35,228 nt of DNA, taken from IMG/VR virus record IMGVR_UViG_3300044640_002948, positions 1 through 35,228 of that record; one strand, given 5' to 3'. The position numbers and the translations under genes were made by a program. Within the stretch, counting starts at the first letter, position 1. Each line of letters begins with the position of its first letter. Positions 19,531 through 35,228 of the stretch are shown here, in pieces. Source of the DNA: a virus. The notes below the pieces were generated by a model that was not told the DNA's origin, did no database searches, and worked only from the letters and a program-made list of their open reading frames with translations.

Positions 19531-20184
19531 ATGATCGATAGTAAGCATGAGACTGATTCAAATGAATCTGATTATTTAAACAAGTATTTCATGGGAATAG
19601 TCGAGGATATTGCAGATCCTAGAAAAGAGGGCAGATGTAAGGTACGAATCTTTGGAATTCATGAAGACCTACCAACTGCAGATCTGCCTTGGGCCTATCC
19701 TACTCCAAAGAGTATGATTTTTGGTGCTGGAGGCAAATCGGGTTCGATTTCAATTCCTAAGTTGAATTCAGTGGTTGCAATCAGATTTAACGGAGGTAAT
19801 ATCTATGCTCCTGAGTATTTTGCAATTCATGAGCTGGCAGATGATATTAAAGAAGAGGCCCAATCTGAATACGAAGGATCTCATTTTATCCTTTTTGATG
19901 GAGACCAGGAACTCAAGATTTGGTTTACTCTAAATAAGGGATTAACCATACAATTAAAAGGAGCAAGCATTAACATCAATCAAAAAAATCTGATTACGGT
20001 AAAAACGGATAATAAAGTAGTGGTAGATTCTCCACAAATAGAATTAGGAGCTGGGGCAACTGAATCTGTGATACTTGGAGATGCATTTAAAGTCCTTTTT
20101 GATACTCATACTCATGCAGACTTGACTCCACCCCTAGTTCCATTGAATCCAGCAGTACTAAGTAAAATAACCAAGACTAAATAA
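19531..20184 (+). CDS. OB-fold baseplate spike protein, gp5/gpV-like without lysozyme domain
   Basis: A 217-residue protein with the layout of the tail spike that punctures the outer membrane. Residues about 18-110 form the OB-fold domain (FMGIVEDIADPRKEGRCKVR, then PWAYP, then VVAIRF and the Y-x-PEYFAI strand). A short beta-helix-like segment (about 125-185, SININQKNLITVKT) follows. The end is the HTHADLTPPLVPL signature seen in many gp5/gpV C-termini. The lysozyme domain of T4 gp5 is absent; a separate lysozyme lies at 12269-12826. Position next to hub and LysM genes supports the call. Confidence 0.85.
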   Translation: MIDSKHETDSNESDYLNKYFMGIVEDIADPRKEGRCKVRIFGIHEDLPTADLPWAYPTPKSMIFGAGGKSGSISIPKLNSVVAIRFNGGNIYAPEYFAIHELADDIKEEAQSEYEGSHFILFDGDQELKIWFTLNKGLTIQLKGASININQKNLITVKTDNKVVVDSPQIELGAGATESVILGDAFKVLFDTHTHADLTPPLVPLNPAVLSKITKTK

Positions 20185-20185
20185 A

Positions 20186-20764
20186 ATGGCGGCAGCAGAA
20201 CAGTTACAAAAGATGGATGATTTGATCGCAGCTCTTGGAAAGGAAACTAAATTTCCAGTCCCAGGACTTGATAAAGATAAAATTATCGAAGAAATTGCAA
20301 AAAATAATGAGCAGTTATCTGGATATTCTGAGGAATTGGACAGACAGAAAGAAACTGGAGAAAAGACCCCGGAGGAGGCTGAAGAGGAGAAAAAGAAAAT
20401 CCTAGATGATTTTAAAAAGACCTTGGAACCTTCGGTAAATGAACAGGTTGCAGTAATTCAGAATAATTATACCCTGATTCAAAAATCAACCAAACAATTG
20501 ACTGAAAATGTAGCAAGTGCAATTGCATCAACTGCGATTCCGCCGGCGATTGGAGCTCCACCTGTTGCCCCTAATCCAGCGTATGCCGTTGTTGAAAATA
20601 AACAAAAGAAAAACCTGTTATTGAGCATTCTGTCAACAATGAAGAAGGCCTTTCTAGATCTAATAGCTGCAGCTCGTAAAATAGCCTTTCCTCTTCCTGA
20701 TTCGGTCCTGACGTTAGGAGAATCAATAGGCAAATTAGAATCGGTAGTAGCTACAATCCCTTAA
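20186..20764 (+). CDS. Coiled-coil tail-module protein of unknown function
   Basis: A 192-residue protein. The N-terminal 85 residues are charged heptad-rich helix (EELDRQKETGEKTPEEAEEE and on). A Pro/Ala linker (AIPPAIGAPPVAPNPA) follows at about 115-131, and then a helical C-terminus with an amphipathic AFLDLIAAARKIAF segment. It starts one base after the spike stop, so it is in the same transcript. It may be a tail-tip or assembly protein. Its TAA sits in a TTAA that also provides the stop of the first gene on the other strand. Confidence 0.75.
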   Translation: MAAAEQLQKMDDLIAALGKETKFPVPGLDKDKIIEEIAKNNEQLSGYSEELDRQKETGEKTPEEAEEEKKKILDDFKKTLEPSVNEQVAVIQNNYTLIQKSTKQLTENVASAIASTAIPPAIGAPPVAPNPAYAVVENKQKKNLLLSILSTMKKAFLDLIAAARKIAFPLPDSVLTLGESIGKLESVVATIP

Positions 20765-21357
20765 TCCTTTCGATATAGATTTTCTATGCCTTCAGATCTA
20801 AACAGCTTGTTCAATCTGGATCCTGGGGTCACCGAGATCACGTTATAGCCTAGATCCTTTAATCTCTTCCAATTATTAAACATTAGTTCAAACCTGGGAA
20901 CATACCATTGCTTAGAGGGATTGTGCGAGCATCGATAATCTATTTGTTTCCAAAAGTGACTAGGATCAGACCAATTAAGCGAGGTACCAGCAACATAGAT
21001 TGTGTATTCAGATGCATCTAAATATTTATTGAATAGTATCTGTAAGCCGGTTGTGACTGAATCTGGGTACGAGCCTCTATTTACTCGATTATGAACATCA
21101 ATCCAGCCTGGACAAGGTTTAAGGTTTAAATAGTCGCTTGAAAAGCACAGACTTGATGATATTAATTTAGATTTTAGAATTCGGTCCCCTTCTATCTCTT
21201 TTAAGAGAGGAGAATCGTGAAAATAGAAATAGTTCGGAAAGTGTTTCAACCATATTCTATTTACCCCAAATGTTACTATAGAAGGATCCAGTTTATCAAA
21301 TTCAATATCGTTAATCTGAGGACTATTTCCTAGGACTAGCAGCTTTTTAAATCTCAT
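20761..21357 (-). CDS. Sialyltransferase-like protein (CstI/GT42-like Rossmann fold)
   Basis: A 198-residue protein, last gene of the glycan operon. The N-terminus (LLVLGNSPQINDIEFDKLD, then FGVNRIWL) follows the pattern of bacterial sialyltransferases of the CstI/GT42 kind, where GNGPSL...ID...R/N binds the CMP sugar. The S-motif-like region (VTTGLQILF, then EYTIYVAGTSLNW) resembles the second nucleotide-binding segment. The end (RLNKLFRSEGIENL) also fits. With NeuA and NeuB upstream, transfer of a nonulosonic acid is a sensible role. Relatedness to the MptE/DUF115 Rossmann group cannot be excluded. It overlaps the HAD gene by 11 bases. Confidence 0.6.
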   Translation of the reverse strand: MRFKKLLVLGNSPQINDIEFDKLDPSIVTFGVNRIWLKHFPNYFYFHDSPLLKEIEGDRILKSKLISSSLCFSSDYLNLKPCPGWIDVHNRVNRGSYPDSVTTGLQILFNKYLDASEYTIYVAGTSLNWSDPSHFWKQIDYRCSHNPSKQWYVPRFELMFNNWKRLKDLGYNVISVTPGSRLNKLFRSEGIENLYRKD

Positions 21358-21661
21358 TTAAATCAAATTTTGACCAGTCTTGAGAATTGATGTTCTTATC
21401 GTCGATAAAAAGATCGTAAGCTGGTTTTCCAAATTTAAGATCGTGATATTTGACTCCCCAAGTTGCAAACTGGAGCTCAGTTAACTCTCTCCAATCAATT
21501 CTGGTGACGGTTCCACGAGCTGTCCAATAGATCACAGTATGACCGGCATCGTAATAGCTATTTGCTCTGGCTATTGCATCCGGAATCGGAACTGCTTGAG
21601 CATAGTCTCCGTTAACTGATCCGGTGCAGATAGTATCATCAATGTCTATATAAATTATCAT
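21347..21661 (-). CDS. HAD-superfamily phosphatase
   Basis: A 104-residue small HAD enzyme. Motif I is DIDDTIC (6-12), motif II includes the Thr of YWTARG (about 45-50), and motifs III/IV are K78 with the FIDD at about 85-88. The protein has no cap domain, so it is the compact C0 type found in sugar and capsule pathways. In this operon it could dephosphorylate a nonulosonic acid 9-phosphate or another sugar phosphate, which is inference. The start shares ATGA with the Cys-rich gene upstream, and the end overlaps the next gene by 11 bases. Confidence 0.8.
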   Translation of the reverse strand: MIIYIDIDDTICTGSVNGDYAQAVPIPDAIARANSYYDAGHTVIYWTARGTVTRIDWRELTELQFATWGVKYHDLKFGKPAYDLFIDDKNINSQDWSKFDLNEI

Positions 21662-21942
21662 TGAATTTCGATATTATTTTCAGATTTAAACTTTTCCCAA
21701 TCAGACAGATTCATTAAGTCTGGAAATCGATCTCCAGAATTACAGGACTCTTTGACATACAGCTTACCTGGAATATCGCAGCCACAATAGATACAATATC
21801 CCAATCTAATGCAGTCTGACTTGCATATTTGAGAACGATAAAGCACCTGTTCCTGTTGATGTTTAGGAAGCATGCCTAATTCATCTCCTAACATTTTTAA
21901 GTTGCCTTCAATAAACTGTAATACTTTCTTTGGAGTAATCAT
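21658..21942 (-). CDS. Small Cys-rich, probably zinc-binding protein
   Basis: A 94-residue protein. A helical N-terminal 40 residues precede a Cys cluster: CKSDCIRLGYCIYCGCDIPG at about 38-57 and another Cys near 67. Four to six Cys in this spacing point to a zinc or iron-sulfur site. The same kind of short Cys protein occurs in phage and glycan loci, but I do not know its role. It is coupled on both sides by ATGA overlaps, to NeuB upstream and the HAD phosphatase downstream. Confidence 0.75.
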   Translation of the reverse strand: MITPKKVLQFIEGNLKMLGDELGMLPKHQQEQVLYRSQICKSDCIRLGYCIYCGCDIPGKLYVKESCNSGDRFPDLMNLSDWEKFKSENNIEIQ

Positions 21943-22823
21943 ATGCCTCTTAAGCTCTTTCTTTTTTCTAATTCAGACTTAAGAACCGATCTTTGACCAT
22001 ATCCGCCTCTAGCTGATTCAATGTCCTTAATGCTTTTAACTAATTTAATTAATCCCTGAGGCTCAACTGAGGCCATTTGGTCTGATCCCCATAAAGATCT
22101 ATCAAGAGTAACGTGTCGTTCAATCCAGGAGGCTCCTAATAGGGTAGAAGCCATGGTTGTAATTAGACCGAACTCATGACCTGAATATCCTACCTCGTAT
22201 TCCTTTCTAAAATCAGAGCGGATGTGATTAAGATAAACAATATAATCCAGATTTAAATCTTCAATCGGGGATGGGTAGGTTGAATTGGTATGAAACACCA
22301 CATCAGGTTCCCCTATCTGAATTGCCTGATCTATTTCAGGCTGAGTGCTCATTCCAGTTGAAATTAAGAGGAATTCAGAAGAGTCCTTTGCATCTTGAAT
22401 TAATTCAAGGTCAGTAATTAAAGCTGACGGTATCTTCATCACAGGTCCGGATTTACCATTCGGCAAAGCAGTATGATATCGAGTCATGAATTTAACCGAA
22501 TTAAGGTCCCAGACTGAGGCGAACCATCCTATGCCTTTCTCTTGGCAATATCTATCAATCTCATCGTATTCTTCCTGACCGAATTCAATGTCTAATTTAT
22601 ATTGAAGATAAGTGGTTTCCTCTTCTCTCCAAGGAACCCTTTTAGGCTTTGATTTTTCAGCCTCAGGAACGCACACATTGGGATCTCGTTTTTGAAACTT
22701 GACATAGTCACATCCTGCTACACAAGCGATGTCGATTAATTTTTTAGTGTTATCTAAAAACTTAGATCGATCCTTTCCGTATGCGAAATTGATTCCTATT
22801 TCAGCGATAATTTTTGTACTCAT
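21939..22823 (-). CDS. neuB: NeuB-family nonulosonic (sialic) acid synthase lacking the SAF domain
   Basis: A 294-residue TIM-barrel enzyme of the NeuB family, which condenses phosphoenolpyruvate with an N-acetylated hexosamine to make sialic, legionaminic or pseudaminic acid. Visible motifs are AEIGINF (7-13), AGCDYVKFQ, ISTGMST, VGYSGHE and SWIERHVTLDR. The last two carry the His residues expected to bind the metal. Usual NeuB proteins are about 340-350 residues with a C-terminal antifreeze-like SAF domain. This one stops at KSLRGI, the point where the SAF domain normally begins. The TGA overlaps the next ATG, so the short form is designed, not a frameshift. The usual GPDH is GSDQ here. It is adjacent to a methyltransferase and the HAD gene. 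Confidence 0.88.
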   Translation of the reverse strand: MSTKIIAEIGINFAYGKDRSKFLDNTKKLIDIACVAGCDYVKFQKRDPNVCVPEAEKSKPKRVPWREEETTYLQYKLDIEFGQEEYDEIDRYCQEKGIGWFASVWDLNSVKFMTRYHTALPNGKSGPVMKIPSALITDLELIQDAKDSSEFLLISTGMSTQPEIDQAIQIGEPDVVFHTNSTYPSPIEDLNLDYIVYLNHIRSDFRKEYEVGYSGHEFGLITTMASTLLGASWIERHVTLDRSLWGSDQMASVEPQGLIKLVKSIKDIESARGGYGQRSVLKSELEKRKSLRGI

Positions 22824-23401
22824 TTTATATTATTTTTTTTAATTTTAATACCATAGCTAACGCATCCATCATTAGCTTTAATAGATATAGTTTGAGAATA
22901 TTTTTGACAAAATTCATTAACTGCTCTATTTACTCCAAAGTTATATACATTTTTAGTTTTTTCAAAATTTTGTTCATAATCATGCCCCATGATATATCCT
23001 CCGGATTTTACTTTTTTAAAGGAAATCTCCAGGTCAGCCATACACCCTGAATAGCTGTGGTCTGCATCTATGTAAACCACATCAAAATAATCATCTGGAT
23101 ATTTTGACAATGCTGATGTTGTATAATCTCTATGTATTACTATATTTTCGACATTTTGAAATTTAGTGTTAACCTGATTATATAGATCTTCACCGTTTAG
23201 TTTTACAACATTATTGCCGTCAACATCCCCTGACATTATATTTGCGTTTTCCCACAGATCAATTAATATTAACTGAGAAGGCTCACATATTTTTAATATT
23301 GACTCGGAAAAAGTTCCATTAAAAACTCCAAGTTCGGCTACTATTAAATTTTTAGGTAAATCTAGTAGCATTTGATTTCTATTTTCGTATATTTTTATCA
23401 T
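22820..23401 (-). CDS. Class I SAM-dependent methyltransferase
   Basis: A 193-residue methyltransferase. Motif I is VAELGVFNGTFSESIL (about 19-34), an acidic end of beta-2 is ILIDLWE, and DVVYIDADHSYSGCM (about 106-120) is the motif IV/post region typical of the Methyltransf_24/sugar O-methyltransferase group. In a glycan operon it probably methylates a sugar of the product. It is ATGA-coupled to neuB downstream and starts one base after the upstream gene. Base content is lower in GC than in neuB. The substrate is inferred from context only. Confidence 0.8.
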   Translation of the reverse strand: MIKIYENRNQMLLDLPKNLIVAELGVFNGTFSESILKICEPSQLILIDLWENANIMSGDVDGNNVVKLNGEDLYNQVNTKFQNVENIVIHRDYTTSALSKYPDDYFDVVYIDADHSYSGCMADLEISFKKVKSGGYIMGHDYEQNFEKTKNVYNFGVNRAVNEFCQKYSQTISIKANDGCVSYGIKIKKNNIK

Positions 23402-23402
23402 C

Positions 23403-24107
23403 TTATTTATGTTTAAACCATGCTATTTTATTATCCGAGTCGTCGGCTCTAAAGACAGTATTAACTGGGAGACCGTGTACTAAATTAGTTCTATAATAGG
23501 TATACAAGACGTGATTAAACGCACACATATCTACCGTCGTATGAGTGATTTTTGAATGAAGCAGTAAATTACTTATTTTTCCGGTTATGTCGATCAGATA
23601 ATCTCTATTTCCTCCTAATATGCCTGCGTTTATAACCTTTTTATCTAGATATTTTTTTAATTCATTATCAATTTCCTTATTGCTTAATAATTTATATCTC
23701 CTAAGCATCCACTGACTTTCCTGATTGATAATTTCTTCGTCGCCGCAGTATATTTTATCAGGCTGAATGTAATTGAACGGATTTTTAAGAATTACCACGT
23801 CAGATACATCTAGAAAAAATGCACTTGAAATATCTGTGTTCTGACTAAGCAGATCATGATATAATTTCCATCTTATGTCTATCATATTTAAACCAGACGA
23901 GTCGCATCGAACGAATTGTATTTTATCAGTTTTGTATTTTTCGATAAAAGCGTCTGACGAGTTGTCTATTAAGATTATACAATTTAAATCATGCTCTACT
24001 ATAGAATCATAGAATTTTTTTATTATTGTAAAATCGTCATTGGACCATATATTTGAACTTTGAGGGTCCTTTTCTGAAGTAAAATATGTTGTCAATACGA
24101 AATTCAT
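23403..24107 (-). CDS. GT-A-fold glycosyltransferase-like protein
   Basis: A 234-residue protein with features of GT-A glycosyltransferases: a beta-rich start (FVLTTYFTS), a CIILIDNSSD segment, FFLDVSDVVILKNPF at about 92-106, where DVSD may serve as the metal-binding DxD, and VINAGILGGNRD (about 157-168), an acceptor-side motif of several GT families. The family cannot be assigned confidently. Its place between a methyltransferase and a sialyltransferase-like gene points to sugar transfer for the operon product. Confidence 0.65.
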   Translation of the reverse strand: MNFVLTTYFTSEKDPQSSNIWSNDDFTIIKKFYDSIVEHDLNCIILIDNSSDAFIEKYKTDKIQFVRCDSSGLNMIDIRWKLYHDLLSQNTDISSAFFLDVSDVVILKNPFNYIQPDKIYCGDEEIINQESQWMLRRYKLLSNKEIDNELKKYLDKKVINAGILGGNRDYLIDITGKISNLLLHSKITHTTVDMCAFNHVLYTYYRTNLVHGLPVNTVFRADDSDNKIAWFKHK

Positions 24108-24117
24108 GCTGATAATT

Positions 24118-24786
24118 TTATTTTCTTAGTGATTTTTGCTTTTCGTATAAATTAAACAGGTCTTTTAATTTATCGTCTAATTTAATGTTACGGTTTGTTT
24201 TACAAAGATCAGCTAGGAACATGAAATCGACTTCGATCCTATGCAAGCTATTGCTCTGTGATGCAGATGAATCTACAAATTTAAAATCCCACTTTGGATT
24301 GCCGCTTCCAGTATATTCAGGGCTAGTTGGATAATAATTTTCAGTGAACCATTTGCCTGATGTGTAAAAATCAAATCCGGTTATAAATAGCTCCTTTGGC
24401 TTATTATTAATTATTTCGTTAATAGCGTTGATCCCGTTTAAGGGTGCAGGTGAATTTTCAAATAATTTATGGTCGGGAGTTCTTAGTACCTTAAACGGTA
24501 TTTGAGTTTCGTTATTAAAAATTCTTTTACATAAGATAAACTTAATACCTTTTTTGATTAGCAAGTCGTCAGTTAATTGATTATTTCTTATAAACTCTAA
24601 GTTCGTAGTTAAAACATCAATTCTTTCTCCATAATCCTTTGAATTTTTATTATATAATAGACCGTTTATTTTTACGACAACGTCATATGAATCGATTATT
24701 TTTCCGGAATTACTACCTGTTAAGTGATGAGCAGGTCCGACAATAACGACATTTTTGTTTTTTACTAAATCTTCAAAATTTTTCAT
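24118..24786 (-). CDS. GT29-type sialyltransferase-like protein
   Basis: A 222-residue protein. The segment VVIVGPAHHLTG followed by GSNSGKIIDSYDVVVKIN (together residues about 13-41) strongly resembles the L-sialylmotif of sialyltransferases, which binds CMP-sialic acid. APLNGINAINEI and ELFITGFDFYTSG (about 135-170) match the S-motif. A later SLHRIEVDF supplies an H...E pair as in the VS motif. It should transfer a nonulosonic acid from CMP. A TAAATAGTAAATA element, two changes from the late-promoter-like one, lies one base before the ATG, so it may have a start of its own. The region is about 25% GC in a sampled 60 bases. Confidence 0.75.
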   Translation of the reverse strand: MKNFEDLVKNKNVVIVGPAHHLTGSNSGKIIDSYDVVVKINGLLYNKNSKDYGERIDVLTTNLEFIRNNQLTDDLLIKKGIKFILCKRIFNNETQIPFKVLRTPDHKLFENSPAPLNGINAINEIINNKPKELFITGFDFYTSGKWFTENYYPTSPEYTGSGNPKWDFKFVDSSASQSNSLHRIEVDFMFLADLCKTNRNIKLDDKLKDLFNLYEKQKSLRK

Positions 24787-24803
24787 ATATTTACTATTTA
24801 TTT

Positions 24804-25430
24804 TTATACGTCTAGAACCGAGTCGTAATTTCTAAATCCGCCTCTAAGGTCACTATATCCAGGTCTCTGCTTTGTCAAGTGAGGCCTAAAAACAAAAACG
24901 TTAGCTGTCTGTTGATATTTTATAAATAAAGAGTCAACGGGCATTGAATAATTTGAATCGTCGATTATTTTTTTTAGAGAAATAGCTGTTTTTTTAGTTA
25001 TAAAGTAGCTATGTAGCGCTAAAGTACCATTAGTTCTGTAAATATTTTCAGTAACTTTCACAATTGGCTTTGTGTTATTTCCAGAAATATAGACCATATC
25101 CCAGTTTTTAGGCAGCTGGTCTTTAAATAATTGAAAATTTTGATTAAAATCATCGTTGAATACGATATCGTCCTCGAGTATTAGGAATCGGTCACCGTCT
25201 GATTTAATAATTTTTTCTAGAATTGCACGGTGACTTAATAAACAGCCTAATTCAGATTGATTTATCGGACTTGCAGTATTGGGATTGATTAAATTTTCAC
25301 CGTCAATTGCTGAAAGTCTTTCAACTTTACATCCAATTTTATTAAATTCTTCGACTGCTTGCTCCCATCTATCAGGCCGTCGATCAAGATTGATGCAATA
25401 TATTTTGTCAAAATAGTCGTTAAGGGTCAT
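24804..25430 (-). CDS. GT25-family glycosyltransferase
   Basis: A 208-residue member of glycosyltransferase family 25, the LPS/LOS galactosyltransferase family. The start IYCINLDRRPDRW (about 10-22) and AIDG (41-44) are typical. ELGCLLSHRAILEKI is followed by FLILEDDIVFNDDF (about 82-95), where EDD is the catalytic/metal motif. AVYISGN-like (MVYISGN) and TALHSYFITKKTA elements come later. Family members add galactose or glucose to LPS; here it probably extends the phage-made glycan. It starts four bases before the stop region of the upstream GT-B gene. Confidence 0.85.
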   Translation of the reverse strand: MTLNDYFDKIYCINLDRRPDRWEQAVEEFNKIGCKVERLSAIDGENLINPNTASPINQSELGCLLSHRAILEKIIKSDGDRFLILEDDIVFNDDFNQNFQLFKDQLPKNWDMVYISGNNTKPIVKVTENIYRTNGTLALHSYFITKKTAISLKKIIDDSNYSMPVDSLFIKYQQTANVFVFRPHLTKQRPGYSDLRGGFRNYDSVLDV

Positions 25431-25433
25431 ATT

Positions 25434-26279
25434 TTATAATTTTTTATATATGTTGATATATTCATCAGCTATTGTTTTAGGATTCCAATGCTTTTCCATC
25501 CATAAGCGACTGTTATATCCTTTTTCTAGAATTGAATGTATTCCCGAGTCTATTAATTCTACCAATTTATTTTGTAAATTTGAAATGCTTACATTGATAA
25601 ATGGATTAGTTTGGGAATTTGAAGAATTCAAAAGAATCTTTTCAACTTCAGGACCTATTGAGCATACAGTGGCTATACCCATCCCTAAAGACTCTAACCC
25701 TGATCTGTGATATGAAACGGTTTTAACTTCGTCAATAAAAATATTACAAACTGATTTTCTAACTAGGCATTCTTCTAAAGAGACTCCAGTTATGATATCT
25801 ATATCTATCAAGTTTCCAAATCTACTTTTTATTGAATTAAGTATTGGGATCGTTTCAGAATACCCCTTGTCAGCCCATTTAGAAGCAGGATTCAGAGTAG
25901 ATGGAGAGTATCCTATCTTTATCTTGGAATTTTGATATTTTGGTAGAAAGATTTCATCGTATAGATCTATTGGATTTCTAACAATTTCACAGCCTTTGTA
26001 TTCAGGAAGAGTTGCATGATATTGAGCGATGACTAACTTTTTAATCTTCGCATTTAAGTGAACTCTAAATGGCTCACTGTGATACTGAATTATCTTTTTT
26101 CTGTGATCTATAACGTCTAAATTATGTTGATGTACAATATCTGATTTTTTGTAGTCGTCAGTTTTTGAATACCCGTGACCAAATACAAATGAAGAGTGTT
26201 CAGTATACTTATTGATTATGGTCGATACTGCCTCAGGGGCCCGGGCAATTGGAGTCTGCTTATAATGAGCTATTATCAT
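25434..26279 (-). CDS. GT-B-fold (GT4-like) glycosyltransferase
   Basis: A 281-residue protein. The second half has the GT4-like donor-binding region: SYHRSGLESLGMGIATVCS (about 187-205) with a Gly-rich acceptor loop and downstream Glu. The end has NSRLWMEKHWNPKTIADEY, as in many GT4 proteins. The first half is a shorter acceptor domain (HGYSKTDD...IVHQHN). It is smaller than typical GT4 enzymes (about 370 residues), so the N-terminal domain is reduced. Its start overlaps the bimodular upstream gene by 20 bases. Confidence 0.7.
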   Translation of the reverse strand: MIIAHYKQTPIARAPEAVSTIINKYTEHSSFVFGHGYSKTDDYKKSDIVHQHNLDVIDHRKKIIQYHSEPFRVHLNAKIKKLVIAQYHATLPEYKGCEIVRNPIDLYDEIFLPKYQNSKIKIGYSPSTLNPASKWADKGYSETIPILNSIKSRFGNLIDIDIITGVSLEECLVRKSVCNIFIDEVKTVSYHRSGLESLGMGIATVCSIGPEVEKILLNSSNSQTNPFINVSISNLQNKLVELIDSGIHSILEKGYNSRLWMEKHWNPKTIADEYINIYKKL

Positions 26280-27864
26280 AAAAAGTTATAATATTTTGAT
26301 CTTTATCTATTGAATCTGCATTATTTAGTACAAATACTTTTTCAAGTGCATAATCATGTACCTTTGAAATGGGATAGTTCATTCCTTCTTTTTTTCTAAG
26401 GATACTAGCCTGACCTCCTTCATAAAAATTGAAACCAAACATGTTTATTTTTTTATATCCACCTAATTTTAACAGCAGAATCAGAGTTGCAAATCCGCTA
26501 GTAGCCGGGTTGTTGTCTTTAAAAGCGTTAGGTATTATAGAATGATGATTAAATTTTAAGAGAGTGCCTTGACTGTATTTATTAAGGGTCTTTAATTTGC
26601 TTATCCAGTTCTTGGAATGAATTGATAAAATATATCGGATTGGAACATAGACATCTAGATTCTCAGGCTGTAAATATATAGAAACGTGAACTGTTGTTCG
26701 GCTTCCAGTATGTTCAGGCTGTATGTCGTAAGAATTAAATCTGATTACTACGTCATGTGAATCGATTAATTTACCATTTGAAGATTTTAATAGGTCGCTC
26801 GAATTGGCAATTAAAGCAATAGATTTATCTTTAATAAATGCCCTAAAGAATGACAGATCCATAAATGATAGATCCATTCTATTTTTTGATAATTCGGAAT
26901 CCAGTTTACCATTAATCGTCAGGATGTCTGACTCCGATATGGCTGATTTAAATATATGAGTATTTAAATCAGAGCTGATCTTTTTCTTATTAGAAGGAAC
27001 AGGTTTAATATTAGAAGTCTTTGAGTTAATTTGACTTATTTTAATATTAACCAGTTTACTATTCTTCTTGATGTCGACTAATTTTTGTTGTATCGAATTG
27101 TTTTGCTGAAGCCAATAAGTGTGAATTCTTACATAGTTTTTCTTGTTTTCGTGAGTGTTATAGTATATTGATTTTATAGATTTAGAATATCTAACAAAAT
27201 TAGAATATTTCTGATCTATAAAATTTGAAGATTTACACATGAACGTGTTAGATAGTACCTTGACATTTAAATTATTTTTCCTTACGATGTCATTTATTAA
27301 TTTATTTTCGGAAAGAGGTTCAGAAATGTTTATATTAGATAGATTCTGTACCATTGCTGAATAGTTTTCGTTGATCGCATATCGAGAAGGAACAAACATC
27401 AATTTAGAATTAATGTCCTGAGAATTAGAGCCATCAGAATTTGGAAAGCTATTAGAGTCGGAGGGAGCAGTAAGATGATTGGCATCTAACATATCACTTA
27501 CATCTCCCATAAAAACTGTGTTTCTAGAAAAGTAGATGTTTCCTTCTGATTTTATGTTAAATGCAAGCACACCCAGATAATTCAGGACGCGATCGAGAGG
27601 AATGTTTTTCTTTAAGAGTTTAGAGGCAACGTTTTGCATTATCGGATCGTTGTGATCAATTTCTAAAATCTCTGTCTTTTCGTAGATCGACTTTAGGACA
27701 TCTATATTAGGTTGGCTCAGACCATTATTCTTAATTGTTGCGATTATTAATGTTCCGTCAAACCACAAATTATTAGCAACAAAAGTAGATACTGCAAGAC
27801 GAGTCATCGGAAAGGTTGAATTGCTCGATTCAGTTATTGCGCAAAAATTATCGTATGTCACCAT
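26260..27864 (-). CDS. Bimodular protein: GT-A remnant plus GT29-like sialyltransferase
   Basis: A 534-residue protein with two parts. The N-terminal 130 residues look like a GT8-type GT-A domain (TFVANNLWFDGTLI, LNYLGVLAFNI, then IYFSRNTVFMGDVSDML), but the DxD position reads SRN, so it may not be catalytic. A Ser/Asn-rich low-complexity linker fills 130-340. The C-terminal part (348-534) is sialyltransferase-like. The L-motif is SIALIANSSDLL followed by KSSNGKLIDSHDVVIRFN (348-377), the S-motif NPATSGFATLILLLKLGG with INMFGFNFYEGG (452-484), and H503 with E508 (HDYALE) the VS-like pair. Low GC content. It overlaps NeuA by 17 bases. Confidence 0.8.
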   Translation of the reverse strand: MVTYDNFCAITESSNSTFPMTRLAVSTFVANNLWFDGTLIIATIKNNGLSQPNIDVLKSIYEKTEILEIDHNDPIMQNVASKLLKKNIPLDRVLNYLGVLAFNIKSEGNIYFSRNTVFMGDVSDMLDANHLTAPSDSNSFPNSDGSNSQDINSKLMFVPSRYAINENYSAMVQNLSNINISEPLSENKLINDIVRKNNLNVKVLSNTFMCKSSNFIDQKYSNFVRYSKSIKSIYYNTHENKKNYVRIHTYWLQQNNSIQQKLVDIKKNSKLVNIKISQINSKTSNIKPVPSNKKKISSDLNTHIFKSAISESDILTINGKLDSELSKNRMDLSFMDLSFFRAFIKDKSIALIANSSDLLKSSNGKLIDSHDVVIRFNSYDIQPEHTGSRTTVHVSIYLQPENLDVYVPIRYILSIHSKNWISKLKTLNKYSQGTLLKFNHHSIIPNAFKDNNPATSGFATLILLLKLGGYKKINMFGFNFYEGGQASILRKKEGMNYPISKVHDYALEKVFVLNNADSIDKDQNIITFYDNSSL

Positions 27865-28480
27865 TTAATTTATCAAGATCTTTTTGAGTGTCAACATCAA
27901 TAGTATCTGGACTTATATCAAGGTAATAAGTATCCCTATAGTAAAGATTCTGATTAAGTTTATTTATCGATTTGGATTTAAATATGCATATAAAATGACT
28001 CAATTCGAAGCATGCTGGATAATCCTGTCTGCGATATAAATCATGATAGAACAATTGAGATCCTCGGTTTCCTTCCTCCTCTTTTAAAATTAGGAATGGA
28101 GTAATCTCTATTTTCTTCTTACATAAGAGTGATTTTAATTTCTTCTTCTTATAGATTTCTATCGCCGATTCGATTTGATCCCAGGTTCTTTCAGGGTAGG
28201 TTAAGTATAGGACTACCAAGTCGTCATCAATTCCCTGGTTCTGTATAAAGAAGTCCATTAAGGACCAAGTTGAAGCAGTGTCTCCTGAAATTTCTGCGTG
28301 TCGATGCCAAATGTTAAATCCTCTTTCTTGGGCCAATTGCTTTACTACTGAGTCATCAGTTAAGACCCAAACCTGATCCTTCAAGGAAGAAGGTATGGTG
28401 TCAGCGGTAGAATTAAATAACAGTCTATTTTTATGAGGAAGACCTTTGGATCCGGCCCTGGCAGGTATTATGATTTTCAT
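27848..28480 (-). CDS. neuA: NeuA-family CMP-nonulosonate cytidylyltransferase
   Basis: A 210-residue CMP-sugar synthetase. The start IIPARAGSKGLPHKNRLL is the signature of NeuA/PseF/PtmB enzymes that bind CTP. LTDDSVVKQLAQERGF follows at about 40-55, with ISGDTASTWSLM, LYLTYPERTWDQIESAIE, and finally YYLDISPDTIDVDTQKDLDK. It makes the CMP sugar used by the sialyltransferase-like neighbours. Which nonulosonic acid is used (sialic, legionaminic, pseudaminic) cannot be said. It overlaps the upstream gene by four bases (ATGA). A sampled 60 bases gave 42% GC, higher than the central operon genes. Confidence 0.88.
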   Translation of the reverse strand: MKIIIPARAGSKGLPHKNRLLFNSTADTIPSSLKDQVWVLTDDSVVKQLAQERGFNIWHRHAEISGDTASTWSLMDFFIQNQGIDDDLVVLYLTYPERTWDQIESAIEIYKKKKLKSLLCKKKIEITPFLILKEEEGNRGSQLFYHDLYRRQDYPACFELSHFICIFKSKSINKLNQNLYYRDTYYLDISPDTIDVDTQKDLDKLNGDIR

Positions 28481-29091
28481 AATTCTTTAAAGTTTTCTAC
28501 GGTTATTTTTGGAACGGATTCTATTTTGCTATCCTGACTGAGATTATAGAAATCACACCCGTTATTATATAGCTCTTCTTTTAGAATCTCATATCCTCGA
28601 TTTATGTCTCTAGTATAATTCATCCGGTCAAGGGAGTGAGGGCCGTCTTTAGGGGCATAAAAATGACCATGAGTGAAGTCTACTCCGATCATGCCTATTT
28701 TTCTAGCTCCTAGCTTATAGGCAATATTGATTGCAACATAGGGTGAATTTAAAAAATGATCCACTTTATTAGGATCGTTTAAAAAATAGGTTCCCTTTCT
28801 TCCCAGGTCAAAGTGAACCATTCTAGGATGTCTCCATCCCTGTGAACAGGTAAACATATAACGACTCTCGGACTCGTTAATCATCTTTTTTCTAGCATCA
28901 TTAAATCTAATAGAAGCGTCAGTCACTACTAAATAAGTAGGGGTAAAAAGTTTAGGGACGTCGTTGACCCCTATTGTGATGAAATCTTGATGATGATCCT
29001 TAAATTCTAAAAGGGAGATTCCACAACCACATACAACTATTTTTTGATTTAGATGAATATCTTTAAACTCGGATAATCTCTTAACTAACAA
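28477..29091 (-). CDS. Sialyltransferase-like Rossmann protein, first gene of the glycan operon
   Basis: A 204-residue protein. It has IVVCGCGISLLEFKD followed by FITIGVNDVPKLF, a GCG-x-SL...VND pattern like bacterial sialyltransferase/MptE (DUF115) proteins. A later SPYVAINIAYKLGARKIGMIG with GVDFTHGHFY is S-motif-like, as in CstI and relatives. The last residues form a polar tail. The start is TTG, with no better Met near. The 70-base divergent gap with the DnaJ-like gene should hold the operon promoter. Enzyme role is inferred from the operon. Confidence 0.6.
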   Translation of the reverse strand: MLVKRLSEFKDIHLNQKIVVCGCGISLLEFKDHHQDFITIGVNDVPKLFTPTYLVVTDASIRFNDARKKMINESESRYMFTCSQGWRHPRMVHFDLGRKGTYFLNDPNKVDHFLNSPYVAINIAYKLGARKIGMIGVDFTHGHFYAPKDGPHSLDRMNYTRDINRGYEILKEELYNNGCDFYNLSQDSKIESVPKITVENFKEL

Positions 29092-29161: not shown

Positions 29162-30169
29162 ATGACCGATTATTATAAAATTTTAGAAGTAAACGAAAAG
29201 TCTACCGATGCCGAGATCAAAAAATCCTATCGAAAACTAGCTCTTCAGTATCACCCAGACAAAAATGGGTCAGCCGGAGCTGAGGACCGATTTAAACAGA
29301 TAGCTGATGCCTATTCTATTCTAGGAGATGCCGAAAAAAGAAGGGAATATGATGCTAAGAGATCGATGGGATCGCATGCAGGTGGAAATCCATTTAAAAA
29401 TCATAGACCAAGAGGAGGAAATCGAGGAGGAAATTGGAATTTCGAATCCAGCTTTGACGAATGGTCCAAGTCTCAATTTAAGTCAGGAGGATTCGGCAGT
29501 CAGAATTTTTCAGAAAGATCGAAAGGTGCAGCTAAACCTGCCACTGACCATCTGGACATTAATCAAAAACTGGAGATACCTTTAACCCGAATAATAGATG
29601 CGGAACCAATTGAAATCTCCTATGTTAGATATGTAATAGACGGAGAATTTAAAAAATCTGAAGAAGAAAAAACCTTGATGCTCCATCTAGATCTTAGAAA
29701 AAAGCTGGCTAATTTAAAATTAGAAGGGGATTTGGGAATTATTAAAATCAAACTGGATCACTTGGGAAATGAAGATTCAATTGGTAGAAAAAATATATGG
29801 GGAGAGGATGAATCCGTCTTAATGATTGGAAATTTAAACATTGAAATCTCAGTTCAAATTCCAGAAGGAATAAAGCTGGAGGAGAACAATATCGTTCAAA
29901 TAATAGACGTTCCTCTATATAAAGCCATATTTAAGGGAGAAAAAGTAAGAATCACAACTATTTTTAACAAATCATATGATGCTGAAATAGGTTCACCTAA
30001 GAGTCTAAACAATTTAAAATTTAATATAAAAGATCAGGGAATACTGGGAAAGGACGGAAAAATAGGCAATTATACTATTAAATTTAATATAGTTGCGCCA
30101 GATTTTTCAGAATTAGAGCCTGAAAAATTAGAAGAATTAAAAGCTATTTTAAAGAAATATAACGAATAA
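29162..30169 (+). CDS. dnaJ: DnaJ/CbpA-like co-chaperone
   Basis: A 335-residue J-domain protein. The J-domain (residues 3-70) has YYKILEV, the HPD motif in LQYHPDKNG, and FKQIADAYSILGD. A Gly/Arg/Asn-rich linker (about 75-120) follows. Then come two beta-rich C-terminal substrate domains (about 135-335). The Cys-rich zinc domain of true DnaJ is absent, so it is of the CbpA (class B) type. J-proteins stimulate Hsp70 ATPase. Its place directly before the protease, scaffold and capsid genes suggests it recruits host DnaK for head protein folding, which is inference. Confidence 0.9.
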   Translation: MTDYYKILEVNEKSTDAEIKKSYRKLALQYHPDKNGSAGAEDRFKQIADAYSILGDAEKRREYDAKRSMGSHAGGNPFKNHRPRGGNRGGNWNFESSFDEWSKSQFKSGGFGSQNFSERSKGAAKPATDHLDINQKLEIPLTRIIDAEPIEISYVRYVIDGEFKKSEEEKTLMLHLDLRKKLANLKLEGDLGIIKIKLDHLGNEDSIGRKNIWGEDESVLMIGNLNIEISVQIPEGIKLEENNIVQIIDVPLYKAIFKGEKVRITTIFNKSYDAEIGSPKSLNNLKFNIKDQGILGKDGKIGNYTIKFNIVAPDFSELEPEKLEELKAILKKYNE

Positions 30170-30220: not shown

Positions 30221-32209
30221 TTGAGTAATTCATTTAATGCTTCTAACAGTTTAAACAGCGATTGGGTATTGATCGTTGAAAACATTGGTGAAGATTTACA
30301 AGTAAGGAGTACTGAATCTAATAATATTATATTAGAAGGAGTATGTGCGGTTTTCGGATCTAAGAATAACAACAACCGAGTTTACGAAAAGGACGAATAT
30401 CTTCCACATTTAAATTATCTTAAGGATAAAATTTCTAAAAAACAATTGGTTGGAGATCTAGATCATCCTCCTCATTTTGATGTTACTTTAAAGAGTGCAT
30501 CTCATATCATTACAGGATTAGATTATGATGGTGGAAATAAAGTAAACATCAAATTAAGAATTTTAGAGGATACTCCAAATGGAAAAATTGCTAAGGCCTT
30601 AATTAATGGTGGTGTAAATCTTTCTATCTCATCAAGAGCTGCTGGTCAGGTTTTAAATGAAGGTAAAGTAAAACTTCATAGAATTTTCACTTATGACCTG
30701 GTTGGAGAGCCTGGATTTACTGAAGCAATGTTAAAGAGAACAGTTAACGAATCTTTGAAAACTGATTTTCAAATGTTAACTGAAAGCTTTGACCATCTTA
30801 AATCTGAATCATTTGTTAGCAAGAATCACTTGACTGACATTTCAGAAAGTTTAGATTATGCAAATAATTTTAAAATTTACAAAATAAATAACTCTATAGA
30901 ATCAGTATTTGAGAATTCTATACAACCTCAAAAAAATAAAAATATAATGGCAGAGAAATTTGTAACAGCAGATTCAATGAACAAGTATTCGAATCTTGTA
31001 AGAGAACAAATTAACAGTATTAAAAGCGAATTGAAGCAACAAAGAAATCTGTTTGAATCTTCAAATTCAGGAATTGATGCTGTTTCAGATAGCGATGTTA
31101 ACATGTCTAAATTAATGGGATTTGTTAATTATCTTGCTGAAAACTTAGAAGGTGTAGTTAACTATGCTGACTATCTTTCTAAAATGGTTAATAAATCAGT
31201 TGCATACACTGAGCACGTAGCTAAAACTACTAACAATGCAATCGAGTACACTAACTATTTAGGAGAAAAGTTAAACACTAGCATCGGTCACCAAGACTAT
31301 ATCGCTGAAAAAGTAAATCAGACTATTAATTACGCTGAATACATCAAAGAGAACTTGAATAATTCTATTAATTATCAAAACTATTTAGCTGAGCAAGTAG
31401 ATCAAGGATTACAATATACTGAATATGTAGCAGAAGGAGCTAACAGAGGAATTGAATTCGCTGAATATCTTTCTGAGAACATCAATATCAACCGCGATTA
31501 TATGCAATATGTTGCTGAAAGAGCAAATAATGGAATTGGATATACTGAATATATTGCAGAGCAATTAAACACTGGAAATATTGTACCAGATAAGAGAAAT
31601 CTTTTAGGTTCAGTAGGTCGAGTTAACGAATCTGCAATTGATTCTCTAGTTAACGGTGTAGATAACATCATCGCTGAAGTTAAATCTACTTCTTCTAAAT
31701 CAGTTTTAGAGAACAAATATCCTTTCTTAAAGGTTATGAGCGAATCTAATAAAAAGAGATTCTACAAATTAGATACTAAAACCAAGCAAGCAATTGTTGA
31801 AACTTTAGGAGCAGCGGTTTGGTTTAATGAGAACGATGTTTTAGGAATCATTGAATCAGTTATGAACGAAAGCGCTAAGCATATTCCTACTCATATCAGA
31901 TTTATGCCACATGAGTACAAACCTTTGTGGAATAAAATGAATGAGTCTGAAAAGAATCGAATTCACGCTAAAGCTCAGTTGTACAGTATTAATACTTCAT
32001 ACCAAGCAAAAGCTTTTTGGGATGAGCAAGATTTGAGAGGAATCAACGAAAGAATTGAAATAGAAAAACAAAATAGAAAACTTAGTAAGCTTAACGAAAG
32101 CCAAAGTACAGAAGGTATGATCCCAGTAGAAAGGGTAGTTGAGCAACAAAGAGGTTATACCTCGAATTATTTAGATAACTTAATGCGAGGAGCAGATTAT
32201 CGAAAATAA
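30221..32209 (+). CDS. 21: Prohead protease (gp21-like) fused to scaffold
   Basis: A 662-residue polyprotein. Residues about 30-180 form a T4-type prohead protease: ILEGVCAVFG, a GDLDHPPHFD segment with presumed catalytic His82, SISSRA with Ser137/138, and DLVGEPGF. It cleaves scaffold and capsid proteins after (L/I)-x-E during head maturation. From residue 243 on the sequence is the scaffold: a helical start, eleven 14-residue repeats (298-451) and a long charged helical tail with possible cleavage sites (LNESQ, LTESF, ISESL). T4 uses separate genes 21 and 22. The start is TTG; the first possible in-frame codon after an upstream stop. A likely internal start is listed separately. Confidence 0.85.
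   Translation: MSNSFNASNSLNSDWVLIVENIGEDLQVRSTESNNIILEGVCAVFGSKNNNNRVYEKDEYLPHLNYLKDKISKKQLVGDLDHPPHFDVTLKSASHIITGLDYDGGNKVNIKLRILEDTPNGKIAKALINGGVNLSISSRAAGQVLNEGKVKLHRIFTYDLVGEPGFTEAMLKRTVNESLKTDFQMLTESFDHLKSESFVSKNHLTDISESLDYANNFKIYKINNSIESVFENSIQPQKNKNIMAEKFVTADSMNKYSNLVREQINSIKSELKQQRNLFESSNSGIDAVSDSDVNMSKLMGFVNYLAENLEGVVNYADYLSKMVNKSVAYTEHVAKTTNNAIEYTNYLGEKLNTSIGHQDYIAEKVNQTINYAEYIKENLNNSINYQNYLAEQVDQGLQYTEYVAEGANRGIEFAEYLSENININRDYMQYVAERANNGIGYTEYIAEQLNTGNIVPDKRNLLGSVGRVNESAIDSLVNGVDNIIAEVKSTSSKSVLENKYPFLKVMSESNKKRFYKLDTKTKQAIVETLGAAVWFNENDVLGIIESVMNESAKHIPTHIRFMPHEYKPLWNKMNESEKNRIHAKAQLYSINTSYQAKAFWDEQDLRGINERIEIEKQNRKLSKLNESQSTEGMIPVERVVEQQRGYTSNYLDNLMRGADYRK
30947..32209 (+). CDS. 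Nested scaffold protein from internal start (gp22-like)
   Basis: Met243 of the fused gene (MAEKFVTADSMNK) begins in ATGGCA, the start used by many genes here (MAGIND, MAGEQN, MARTKI, MATLVS). Its leader (AAAATAAAAATATA just upstream) is the same A-rich kind as at true starts, for example before 1077. Translation from here would give a 420-residue scaffold without the protease domain. That is the arrangement known for the lambda C/Nu3 protease-scaffold pair. It supplies many scaffold copies per protease copy. Evidence is sequence context only. Confidence 0.5.
   Translation: MAEKFVTADSMNKYSNLVREQINSIKSELKQQRNLFESSNSGIDAVSDSDVNMSKLMGFVNYLAENLEGVVNYADYLSKMVNKSVAYTEHVAKTTNNAIEYTNYLGEKLNTSIGHQDYIAEKVNQTINYAEYIKENLNNSINYQNYLAEQVDQGLQYTEYVAEGANRGIEFAEYLSENININRDYMQYVAERANNGIGYTEYIAEQLNTGNIVPDKRNLLGSVGRVNESAIDSLVNGVDNIIAEVKSTSSKSVLENKYPFLKVMSESNKKRFYKLDTKTKQAIVETLGAAVWFNENDVLGIIESVMNESAKHIPTHIRFMPHEYKPLWNKMNESEKNRIHAKAQLYSINTSYQAKAFWDEQDLRGINERIEIEKQNRKLSKLNESQSTEGMIPVERVVEQQRGYTSNYLDNLMRGADYRK
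31112..31573 (+). repeat. Eleven 42-base coding repeats in the scaffold
   Basis: Eleven successive 14-residue units, two heptads each, consensus (G/S)-I-x-Y-x-x-Y-(L/I/V)-A-E-x-x-N-x, for example TINYAEYIKENLNN. Tyr at position 4 and Tyr/aliphatic at 7-8 recur. This fits a long coiled coil or helical rod. DNA identity between units is only moderate, so the repeats are old. Confidence 0.9.
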
Positions 32210-32233: not shown

Positions 32234-33880
32234 ATGGCACGTACAAAAATTTTCAGAAGGTCAAGCGATAATCGTTTGGCAAACACATGGAAGCCTATTC
32301 TTGAAGGATATGGAGCTGATGTTGAAAAGACTCCTTGGTTAGCTGAGTATGCTCACAACCACGCGATCTTTGATAACACTACTCCAATATTCGAACAAGC
32401 GTATGGCGGACCAGGTTTATTTTATCAACAACCAGGTTCTCTTCCAGGAATGGGTAACCCTTCCGCACCTACATCTAATCAGACTCCGTTCTCTGCAGGT
32501 GTTAAAGGTTCTTACACTGACGCTGGTTCAGGTGATAAATTTCCATCACTTTTACCAGTTGCAATCCAAGTTGCAGCTAAAACTATCGGTTTCGATCTAG
32601 TTCCAGTTGTACCTATGGATTCACCTGTTGGTTTCCTACCTTATTTAGATTATCTTTATACAGGTGGTAGAACTGATAGTGGATTTGAGCCGTACATGGT
32701 TAAAATTCAAGGAGTTACTGAAACAGATCTTGCTGGTGGTACTTTAACACCAGGAACGAACATCACAAAACCTGGAGCTACTGCAACTTACGATTTCGTA
32801 GGATTCTCAAGAGTTGATGGTCACTTGATCTTAAGAGTAGTTACAGATAATGCTACTACTTCTGTAGGCGATGACTTAGTTGGTAACATTACAGCGATCG
32901 GTGGAGCTCTTACTACTCCAGTTGCAATTACTAAACCTCAAGTTCAATTGGTTTCTGCTTTAGAAAACCACATTTCAGGTTTCACATCTATCGGTGATGA
33001 TACTTATGCTGCTGACTCATTTAATGGTCCTTACTTACCTTCAACAGGTAACGTACCTGGATCAATGAAGAGAGAAACTGGTGAGCAATCAAGATTCCGT
33101 CAAATGGGTCTAAGAATGTTTACTAAATTCATCGAGGCTGAAACTGATCAAGTTGCAATTTCTGCTACTGTTGAGCAAATCCAAGACTTGAACAGAGTTT
33201 GGAACTATGACGTTATCTCTATGTTAGAGAACGTTGCAGTTAACGATTTAGCTCAATCAATCAACAAAAGATTGATCGACAGAATCTTTACTTTAGCTGA
33301 TACTCACAATGCTGAAGTTGATTTAGTTGAAGGTTCAGGAATCACTACTTTAGATCTTACTGCAGGTTCTGGTGGATTCGAAAACGTTTCTACATTACAA
33401 AGAAGACTTGTAACTAAGATTCTTGAATTAGCTAACTTAATTTACCACAGAGGTAGATTCGGTGCTGGTACATTCATGATTACTAACGGTAGAGTTGCTT
33501 CTGCTCTTGCAGACGTAGCTGGTTACTCAATCGCTCAAGTTCCTACGGATATGGGTGGAGTAGCAGGTAACCTTTACCCAGCTGGTAAAGTTTATGGTGT
33601 ACAAGTTTACGTTGATCCAAACTTAAGATTTGGAGATACAAGAATCTGTATCGGTAGAAAAGGTGCTGATGAAGAGCCAGGAGTTAAATTTATGCCATAC
33701 ATCATGGCTGAATCACTTCAGACTATTTCTGAAGGTACTTTCTCACCAAAAATCGGTATGAAATCAAGATACGCAATTACTGAGGCAGGATGGCATCCTG
33801 AAACTCAATACATCAACGTTGATGTAGTTGGTAATCTTGCAACTCTTACTGGTGGTGTTGCACCTTCTCAAAGTATCTAA
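32234..33880 (+). CDS. 23: Major capsid protein, gp23-like
   Basis: A 548-residue T4-type major head protein (HK97 fold). The N-terminal delta region contains NTWKPILEGYG, matching T4 gp23 (NKWKPLLEGEG in the same place). The core contains FRQMGLRMFTKFIEAET, then ATVEQIQDLNRVWNYD. The end contains MKSRYAITEAGWHPE. T4 gp23 is cut at a (L/I)-x-E site; here WLAE near 37-40 or PIFE near 55-58 are candidates. Codon choice favours GTT, ACT and GCT, as expected for very high expression. A strong terminator follows. The gene directly follows the protease-scaffold gene as in T4. Confidence 0.95.
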   Translation: MARTKIFRRSSDNRLANTWKPILEGYGADVEKTPWLAEYAHNHAIFDNTTPIFEQAYGGPGLFYQQPGSLPGMGNPSAPTSNQTPFSAGVKGSYTDAGSGDKFPSLLPVAIQVAAKTIGFDLVPVVPMDSPVGFLPYLDYLYTGGRTDSGFEPYMVKIQGVTETDLAGGTLTPGTNITKPGATATYDFVGFSRVDGHLILRVVTDNATTSVGDDLVGNITAIGGALTTPVAITKPQVQLVSALENHISGFTSIGDDTYAADSFNGPYLPSTGNVPGSMKRETGEQSRFRQMGLRMFTKFIEAETDQVAISATVEQIQDLNRVWNYDVISMLENVAVNDLAQSINKRLIDRIFTLADTHNAEVDLVEGSGITTLDLTAGSGGFENVSTLQRRLVTKILELANLIYHRGRFGAGTFMITNGRVASALADVAGYSIAQVPTDMGGVAGNLYPAGKVYGVQVYVDPNLRFGDTRICIGRKGADEEPGVKFMPYIMAESLQTISEGTFSPKIGMKSRYAITEAGWHPETQYINVDVVGNLATLTGGVAPSQSI

Positions 33881-34555: not shown

Positions 34556-35228
34556 ATGGACAATTATATATACTCTTATGCTATTTGGGAAAACCTGAAT
34601 TCATTAAAGGACGTTGAGGAAAGGGATCAGGTAATACTATTTACTGACGTTGAATCAAGTTCTAAATTATGGAAATCTGATGAGATTGCCATGTTTAACG
34701 CTCTTAGAGAACACGAAAAAAGAGTGACTGATACTATAAAAAAGTACAACGGAAAAATAATTAAGACTATTGGAGACAGTTATATGCTTTCCTTTGAAGG
34801 AAAGGACAGCCTGTTAAACTCTATTAGATTCGGATATGACATTCAAATGGATCTGGCTAAAAAACCTATTAAGGTCAAGTCTAAAGTTATAAAGATCAGA
34901 TTAGGAATTCATAAAGGTCCTCTTTATAGAAAACAGACCATGATTCAGGGTAAAAAGCTAATGGATTACTTTGGAAATACTGTAAATACTGCCTCTAGAA
35001 TGGAATCAAAGGTAAGTGACTCAGGGCATATTGCATTTAGCTGGACTGGAAAAATAGATGAAGCCGAGGAGAAGAGAATAATGGATTGGATCAAAGATAA
35101 CGGCCTAAAAGTTGAAATAATTGACTATAAGCATCGCTGTTATTCGGGACAGAGAAAGAGATCTGGAAGGCTTTTATCTGATCTGCAAGTCCATACTTGC
35201 GAGCCTCTAAATCAGTTAAAAGGAGTGG
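34556..35228 (+). CDS. Class III adenylate cyclase, incomplete at window end
   Basis: The reading frame is open from ATG 34556 to the window end (224 codons seen), so the C-terminus is unknown. It is a class III nucleotide cyclase domain. Metal-binding Asp are D31 (ILFTDVESS) and D74 (KTIGDSYM). K70 and D137 (MDYFGN) sit at the adenine-selecting positions, and N144 and R148 (NTVNTASRM) at the transition-state positions. A complete active-site set predicts cAMP synthesis from ATP. Only about 25 residues precede the domain, so no N-terminal sensor exists; a C-terminal region (IIDYKHRCYSGQRKRSG) follows. No signal or membrane segment is seen. A start 47 bases after the reverse small gene has only an A/T-rich leader. 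Confidence 0.88.
   Translation, partial: MDNYIYSYAIWENLNSLKDVEERDQVILFTDVESSSKLWKSDEIAMFNALREHEKRVTDTIKKYNGKIIKTIGDSYMLSFEGKDSLLNSIRFGYDIQMDLAKKPIKVKSKVIKIRLGIHKGPLYRKQTMIQGKKLMDYFGNTVNTASRMESKVSDSGHIAFSWTGKIDEAEEKRIMDWIKDNGLKVEIIDYKHRCYSGQRKRSGRLLSDLQVHTCEPLNQLKGV

Follow-up and report, generated by a model that had tools for sequence, protein, structure and literature searches.

A predicted nonulosonic acid operon with fixed ends and an exchanged middle cassette in a phage lineage

The IMG/VR virus record IMGVR_UViG_3300044640_002948 is a 35,228-bp fragment (the window, meaning the whole stretch of DNA analysed here) that contains an operon for the predicted synthesis and transfer of a nonulosonic acid (NulO). 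Twelve open reading frames (ORFs), all on the minus strand, are packed into positions 20761-29091 (Table 1). Read from 29091 down to 20761, their order is p12-p11-p10-p09-p08-p07-p06-p05-p04-p03-p02-p01. Adjoining ORFs overlap by 4-20 nt or are spaced by 17 nt at most, and no large intergenic gap interrupts the run. Plus-strand neighbours frame the operon: a gp5-like baseplate gene, with one small gene behind it, on one side, and dnaJ, a prohead protease gene and gp23 on the other. The ORF coordinates and flank profiles agree with a preliminary description of this DNA, which had placed a twelve-gene minus-strand run between baseplate and head genes of the other strand. The phage had also been called T4-like, which is correct in a broad sense; the nearest relatives of its capsid protein, however, are those of huge/Lak phages (32-38% identity).

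The island occurs at the same site in many other viral contigs. More than 30 IMG/VR contigs share the order DnaJ / p12-NeuA-p10 ... NeuB-Cys-HAD-p01 / gp5, in which NeuA is p11, NeuB is p04, Cys is the small Cys-rich protein p03 and HAD is the phosphatase p02; each contig displays the part of the island that it spans. The Cys gene is missing or displaced in a few of them, and homologues of p03 are at least about 60% identical across 30 syntenic loci. In a 207-kb record (G063), the gene order follows that of the window from PhoH through the gene after gp23, and the two gp23 proteins are 73% identical. Between the fixed ends lies a middle cassette of 2.3-9.6 kb, the content of which varies among phages. 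The layout departs from this scheme in one locus (L030), where NeuA adjoins NeuB and the cassette sits between NeuB and HAD. When the 112 middle ORFs of 14 loci were clustered together with the six of the window, they formed 45 clusters, 28 of them singletons. The families represented are mainly glycosyltransferase family 2 (GT2), hexapeptide transferases, DegT aminotransferases and methyltransferases, joined by GT8, GT29, PIG-L, UDP-sugar dehydrogenase, asparagine synthase, WbqC, RgpF and sulfotransferase. The p10 protein is itself modular: its N-terminal ~260 aa are common to 12 relatives and the C-terminal parts differ, one homologue (L004) having a GT2 domain in this position. Beyond what the preliminary description had proposed, these sequence comparisons show the island to be a locus that a phage lineage has conserved while swapping its middle cassette.

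Closely related phages have exchanged cassettes, as seen in two comparisons. In the first, between loci L016 and L081, the flanking DNA is 93% identical to the left of the cassette (4 kb) and 95% identical to the right (11.6 kb), and from the end of p10 to the last middle gene a single gene can be aligned at the DNA level. The first half of p01 in this pair (L016:11483-11876) has 67-74% DNA identity amid neighbours of 97-100%, and would be a second hot spot of exchange. In the second comparison, L011 shares its cassette and NeuB with L021 (90.9% over 7.7 kb, the flank being 72.8% identical), and it matches L012 across the flank and NeuB and in the last two genes of the cassette (92.1% over 12.5 kb). 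The fixed genes are under purifying selection, with ratios of nonsynonymous to synonymous substitution rates of 0-0.24, and p10 is set apart from them by a higher value of 0.56. The partly similar island of a 484-kb phage (LR756508) has a GIY-YIG nuclease gene immediately after NeuB (L144:28593-29738); this nuclease could be a driver of cassette exchange.

Table 1. Genes of the operon and of its flanks, with window coordinates and the evidence for each assignment (numbers after a family are E-values; SAM, S-adenosylmethionine; AF2, AlphaFold2).
Gene	Position	Strand	Assignment	Evidence
p12	28477..29091	-	Maf/CstII-like predicted NulO transferase; first gene, fixed left end	AF2 model + Foldseek; phrog_4603
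p11	27848..28480	-	NeuA-type CMP-NulO synthetase	PF02348 5e-7
p10	26260..27864	-	conserved N-terminal domain + C-terminal GT29 domain	PF00777 1.3e-7, aa 350-395
p09	25434..26279	-	presumed glycosyltransferase; variable cassette	homologues in other viral glycan islands
p08	24804..25430	-	GT25 glycosyltransferase; variable cassette	PF01755 3e-21
p07	24118..24786	-	GT29-like predicted sialyltransferase; variable cassette	PF00777 7.6e-7
p06	23403..24107	-	phage glycosyltransferase (GT-A-like); variable cassette	phrog_1579 5e-33
p05	22820..23401	-	SAM methyltransferase; variable cassette	PF13578 (Methyltransf_24) 1.6e-12
p04	21939..22823	-	NeuB-type NulO synthase, short form without SAF; fixed right end	PF03102 1.8e-56
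p03	21658..21942	-	small Cys-rich protein; fixed right end	phrog_13610 3e-19
p02	21347..21661	-	small HAD phosphatase (EcbF/BcbF-like); fixed right end	TIGR01689 1.5e-6, below cut-off; PHROG_1238 1.8e-25
p01	20761..21357	-	GT42 (CstII)-like predicted transferase; last gene, fixed right end	AF2 model + Foldseek
flank	19531..20184	+	gp5-like baseplate hub protein	phrog_430 2.9e-17
flank	29162..30169	+	DnaJ	PF00226 2e-26
flank	30221..32209	+	prohead protease (S77)	PF03420 1.7e-9; phrog_207 7.5e-33
flank	32234..33880	+	major capsid protein gp23	PF07068 1.5e-35

Most gene calls of the preliminary description are borne out by profile searches, which place p04 in PF03102 and p11 in PF02348, as expected of NeuB and NeuA, and also recover the GT25, methyltransferase and Cys-rich proteins. 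The PF02348 match of p11 scores 30.1 bits (curated cut-off 22.6). Its match to the PseF model (E 8e-12) is under the cut-off of that model; the family profile, however, matches solved synthetases of cytidine-monophosphate (CMP)-activated N-acetylneuraminic acid (Neu5Ac) at 1e-20 versus just 0.003 for KdsB. By these matches p11 is nearer to NeuA than to KdsB and is predicted to be a CMP-NulO synthetase (NeuA/PseF/CMAS). Up to four proteins had been called sialyltransferase-like. Two proteins, p07 (29.2 bits) and the C-terminus of p10 (31.8 bits), exceed the cut-off of PF00777 (GT29; 23 bits) in alignments that cover part of the profile, and carry GT29 sialyltransferase domains of predicted activity; two more, p01 and p12, can be so called from their predicted fold, without a Pfam family. 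The HAD phosphatase call for p02 is supported by PHROG_1238, the EcbF/BcbF-like model remaining under its cut-off. No credible Pfam or PHROG match was found for p09, and the label 'GT-B' given to it earlier is unverified since it matches no family; its homologues in other viral glycan islands are 45-64% identical. Pfam matches of p09 to T4_Y03C (E 0.04) and of p02 to LNS2 (E 0.02) were discarded as noise.

The NulO synthase p04 is a short form of NeuB, 294 aa in length. It matches the catalytic barrel of PF03102 at 191.7 bits (cut-off 22.1), and its metal-binding His pair, His216 and His237, and Asp248 of the catalytic core, constant in 26 viral sequences, align with H, H and D of the pseudaminic acid synthase 8h2c. 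The C-terminal SAF (antifreeze-like) domain PF08666 is typical of classical NeuB, PseI and SpsE, but was found in none of 19 viral records with the short NeuB. Uncultured bacteria and archaea, among them Omnitrophota, Nitrospirota and Neomarinimicrobiota, also have relatives of this protein, nearly all of which end at ~270-320 aa too. In a quick tree, for which the cellular sequences were chosen by similarity to the phage profile and are hence a biased sample, a 99%-supported branch splits 45 cellular sequences from 59 viral sequences and nine from metagenome-assembled genomes (MAGs). The tree thus points to the short NeuB belonging to a large phage-dominated clade of its own. Some of the MAG contigs whose NeuB lies inside the viral group (L082-L087, L090) may be unrecognised viral sequence. 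Matches to the short NeuB occur in three of 50,697 deposited phage records versus at least 247 IMG/VR stretches. This viral gene is thus common though rarely seen, and the earlier judgement that such an operon is unusual for a phage has to be qualified accordingly. Among cellular loci, one of archaeal origin (L093, a Thermoplasmatales MAG) joins homologues of p12, NeuA, p05, p07 and NeuB. In four others (L101, L102, L110 and L098) the short NeuB adjoins NeuA-HAD fusions, DegT, Fe-dependent alcohol dehydrogenases and radical SAM/SPASM proteins, neighbourhoods hinting at an undescribed NulO type.

How the phage might make its activated sugar is suggested by what accompanies NeuB. A NeuC-type UDP-GlcNAc 2-epimerase had been reported missing from the window; it is indeed not there, and the absence extends to 30 of the 31 related viral records searched. 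A search of 22 records for NanE, as a source of N-acetylmannosamine (ManNAc)-6-phosphate, gave one sub-threshold match and none over the cut-off. HAD accompanies NeuB in 73 of 80 viral loci, and the loci without it include a contig that ends too early. Cellular relatives have at least one NeuA-HAD fusion (L101), as well as HAD domains among the neighbouring genes. In Leptospira, a fusion of NulO synthase and phosphatase has been interpreted as part of an animal-like route via NulO-9-phosphate (PMC3438082). The phage loci have the linkage of phosphatase and synthase found in that pathway, and nearly all of the records searched lack the NeuC of the canonical bacterial Neu5Ac pathway. From the near-constant linkage of HAD and the near-constant absence of NeuC, we infer that the substrate of NeuB is often a hexose-6-phosphate, possibly drawn from the host, with the linked HAD as the phosphatase. 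NeuB would condense phosphoenolpyruvate with this six-carbon host sugar, either mannose-6-phosphate or ManNAc-6-phosphate, and HAD would take off the phosphate, as the animal-like route does. Mannose-6-phosphate would lead to ketodeoxynonulosonic acid (Kdn) and ManNAc-6-phosphate to Neu5Ac, and NeuA would activate the product to CMP-NulO. The short NeuB with HAD is a candidate NeuC-free route to NulO.

The genes at the two ends of the operon, p12 and p01, reach the cut-off of no family in a Pfam search, so their function is read from their fold. AlphaFold2 models, built on alignments of viral homologues (n=22 for p01 and n=13 for p12), have a mean predicted local distance difference test score of 93 and 94, respectively. 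In a Foldseek search of the PDB, the top 12 matches of p01 are bacterial sialyltransferases only, mostly CstI/CstII, with a single Pasteurella enzyme (E from 8e-5). The ranking for p12 is headed by the Magnetospirillum Maf protein 5mu5 (E 9e-5), followed by CstII (5e-4) and an archaeal HPPK (1e-3), and p12 also matches phrog_4603, annotated as alpha-2,3-sialyltransferase (1.7e-6). Template modelling scores of the GT42/Maf fold matches are 0.5-0.6 for both proteins, and their two families are weakly related in profile comparison (73% probability, E 3e-5). In these models, p01 and p12 have the GT42/Maf-type fold of NulO transferases. Maf enzymes transfer NulO onto Ser/Thr of flagellin, and accept Neu5Ac or 3-deoxy-manno-octulosonic acid donors in engineered cells (PMC11339370).

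We favour, with a probability of about 0.5, the reading that the island is a phage-encoded serotype-like locus, which would make CMP-NulO from a host sugar and build a variable glycan in the cytoplasm, most likely on a phage protein. No island protein has a transmembrane segment, and 20 viral records contain no flippase, phosphoglycosyltransferase or Wzy (PF01943, PF02397, PF04932), so glycan assembly is probably cytoplasmic. The Maf-like fold of p12 and the placement of the island between virion genes make a phage protein the most probable acceptor. The Maf-like p12 would start O-glycosylation of a phage protein, such as one of the virion, in the cytoplasm; p12, the GT42-like p01 and the GT29 domains would transfer NulO; and the middle cassette (glycosyl-, methyl-, acetyl- and aminotransferases, among others) would determine the remaining glycan. 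Recombination within the fixed ends would swap this cassette between phages, and the selective advantage may lie in altered adsorption, decoy binding or recognition. In its fullest form, the proposal is of a lineage-wide 'serotype' locus of large aquatic phages in which the short NeuB, HAD and NeuA convert a central hexose-6-phosphate of the host to CMP-nonulosonate, Maf-like O-glycosylation is directed to the virion, and glycans vary by cassette exchange; so complete a scheme is tentative, and we would not bet on all of its parts together. Several observations weigh against the favoured reading. In a distant relative (G069), the sole record with a NeuC-type enzyme, NeuB, NeuA, HAD and an epimerase (Epimerase_2) are consecutive, and their adjacency means that the substrate there may be unphosphorylated ManNAc. 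The HAD model matched by p02 describes a capsule phosphatase and no known NulO-9-phosphatase. The Maf/CstII fold is also found in MptE-type HPPK, so p12 is not necessarily a transferase. The missing phage flippase is weak evidence because host export machinery could serve, every record searched is a fragment, and the acceptor is putative.

The operon might alternatively remodel the surface polysaccharide of the host, its lipopolysaccharide (LPS) core or capsule, during infection, either to exclude rival phages or to prevent progeny from sticking to debris. We consider this somewhat unlikely, though it is the best of the alternatives. The cassette resembles an O-antigen/LPS locus in its GT2, DegT, hexapeptide acetyltransferase, PIG-L, UDP-sugar dehydrogenase, WbqC and RgpF genes, and its strain-level exchange matches host surface diversity, as would be expected if it tracked strain-to-strain differences in host surface glycans. 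GT25 and GT42 enzymes work on lipooligosaccharide in known bacteria. Given host export, the LPS core is a possible acceptor. The lack of flippase, phosphoglycosyltransferase and Wzy in the 20 records and of transmembrane segments in the island proteins argues the other way, as does the top match of p12, a protein O-glycosyltransferase; if the phage is lytic, the time for surface remodelling would also be short.

Phage DNA has to be added as a third candidate target, beside virion and host surface. The transferases would then glycosylate hydroxymethylated cytosine as a protection from restriction, in the manner of T4 but with a richer and variable glycan, which we regard as distinctly unlikely. 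A thymidylate-synthase-family protein is present in 11 of 17 related records, and 10 of the 12 genes of this family that were found are of a divergent form. In the five divergent sequences examined, Asp replaces the thymidylate synthase Asn (PFN to PTD), a change that we take to be the mark of dCMP hydroxymethylases. Candidate hydroxymethylases of this kind are at G063:C1:70911-71804 and in L219, L220, L221 and L233; G063 additionally encodes a normal thymidylate synthase. The candidate in G063, however, is ~20 kb away from the island, the window itself has no thymidylate-synthase-family gene, and we know of no CMP-NulO pathway or sialyltransferase fold that acts on DNA. Virus glycosyltransferases that hypermodify DNA with diverse glycans have been reported, going by a title cited in PMC12619734. 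Finally, although NeuB and NeuA are typical of bacterial surface-sugar loci and have cellular relatives, an assembly chimera of phage and bacterial DNA, which the preliminary description had named as a possible refutation, or a recent bacterial insert is so improbable that we rule it out, because the same junctions recur in many independent contigs, the 207-kb phage is collinear over nearly the whole window, and the phage NeuBs lie on one side of the 99%-supported branch with few MAG sequences among them.

A DNA-level search for near matches among phage records found none. As a timing clue, the T4 late promoter TATAAATA was uninformative (5 matches versus 6.1 expected), and sigma-70 promoter and terminator scans were close to chance. 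Past gp23 and a DUF5856 gene, a gene truncated at the window end has a domain of the class III adenylate/guanylate cyclases (34556-35227; PF00211, E 5e-23), which is uncommon for a phage. Another gene (10601-12268) strongly matches phrog_1745 (E 7.5e-151), a phage family annotated as 'DNA transfer protein'.

We see the operon as a variant within phage-encoded glycosylation, not as a category of its own. Sugar modification by phages is usually pictured as the work of lone glycosyltransferases, whereas this conserved phage operon would provide its own activated nine-carbon acid sugar, with the other glycan genes swapped like bacterial O-antigen genes. Phages would have their own form of surface-antigen variation if the glycan is on virions, and would re-serotype the host if it is there.

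No prior report of a comparable phage neuB/nonulosonic-acid operon was found in the open-access literature searched, and the locus is best compared with parts of several systems described before. LPS genes in phages were reportedly described in the 2005 genome paper on cyanophages P-SSM2 and P-SSM4. The NulO clusters of bacteria (NeuC-NeuB-NeuA) and the Maf loci for flagellin or capsule likewise have NulO synthase, CMP-NulO synthetase and transferases adjacent, and share the Maf-like fold; the phage locus differs from them in its SAF-less NeuB, in the absence of NeuC from 30 of 31 records, in the lack of an export system in the phage records searched, and in the cassette between fixed ends. 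To our knowledge, no NulO synthesis accompanies virion glycosylation in mycobacteriophages. That system has phage-encoded glycosyltransferases in common with ours and, as far as its citation in PMC12619734 conveys (Freeman 2023), a glycan on virion proteins, which is suggested here; it belongs to another phage group, and the target in our case is putative. The animal-like pathway of Leptospira shares the linkage of a phosphatase to NulO synthase (PMC3438082), but the phage phosphatase is a separate EcbF/BcbF-like HAD and its substrate a presumed one. Moraphages are large phages of aquatic habitats, close to Lak, whose genomes encode DnaJ and core glycosyltransferases (PMC12619734). They have in common with the window PhoH, gp23, DnaJ, a prohead protease and a UvsW-like helicase, along with core glycosyltransferase orthogroups and genomic islands, but sialic or nonulosonic acid is not mentioned in that paper, and there is no moraphage record among the matches in the collections searched. 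The gene content of the window fits the moraphages, and an aquatic setting would follow from this resemblance alone. O-antigen and capsule serotype loci differ from the phage locus, which is viral and without Wzx/Wzy, but have the same conserved ends, interchangeable middle and flanking recombination.

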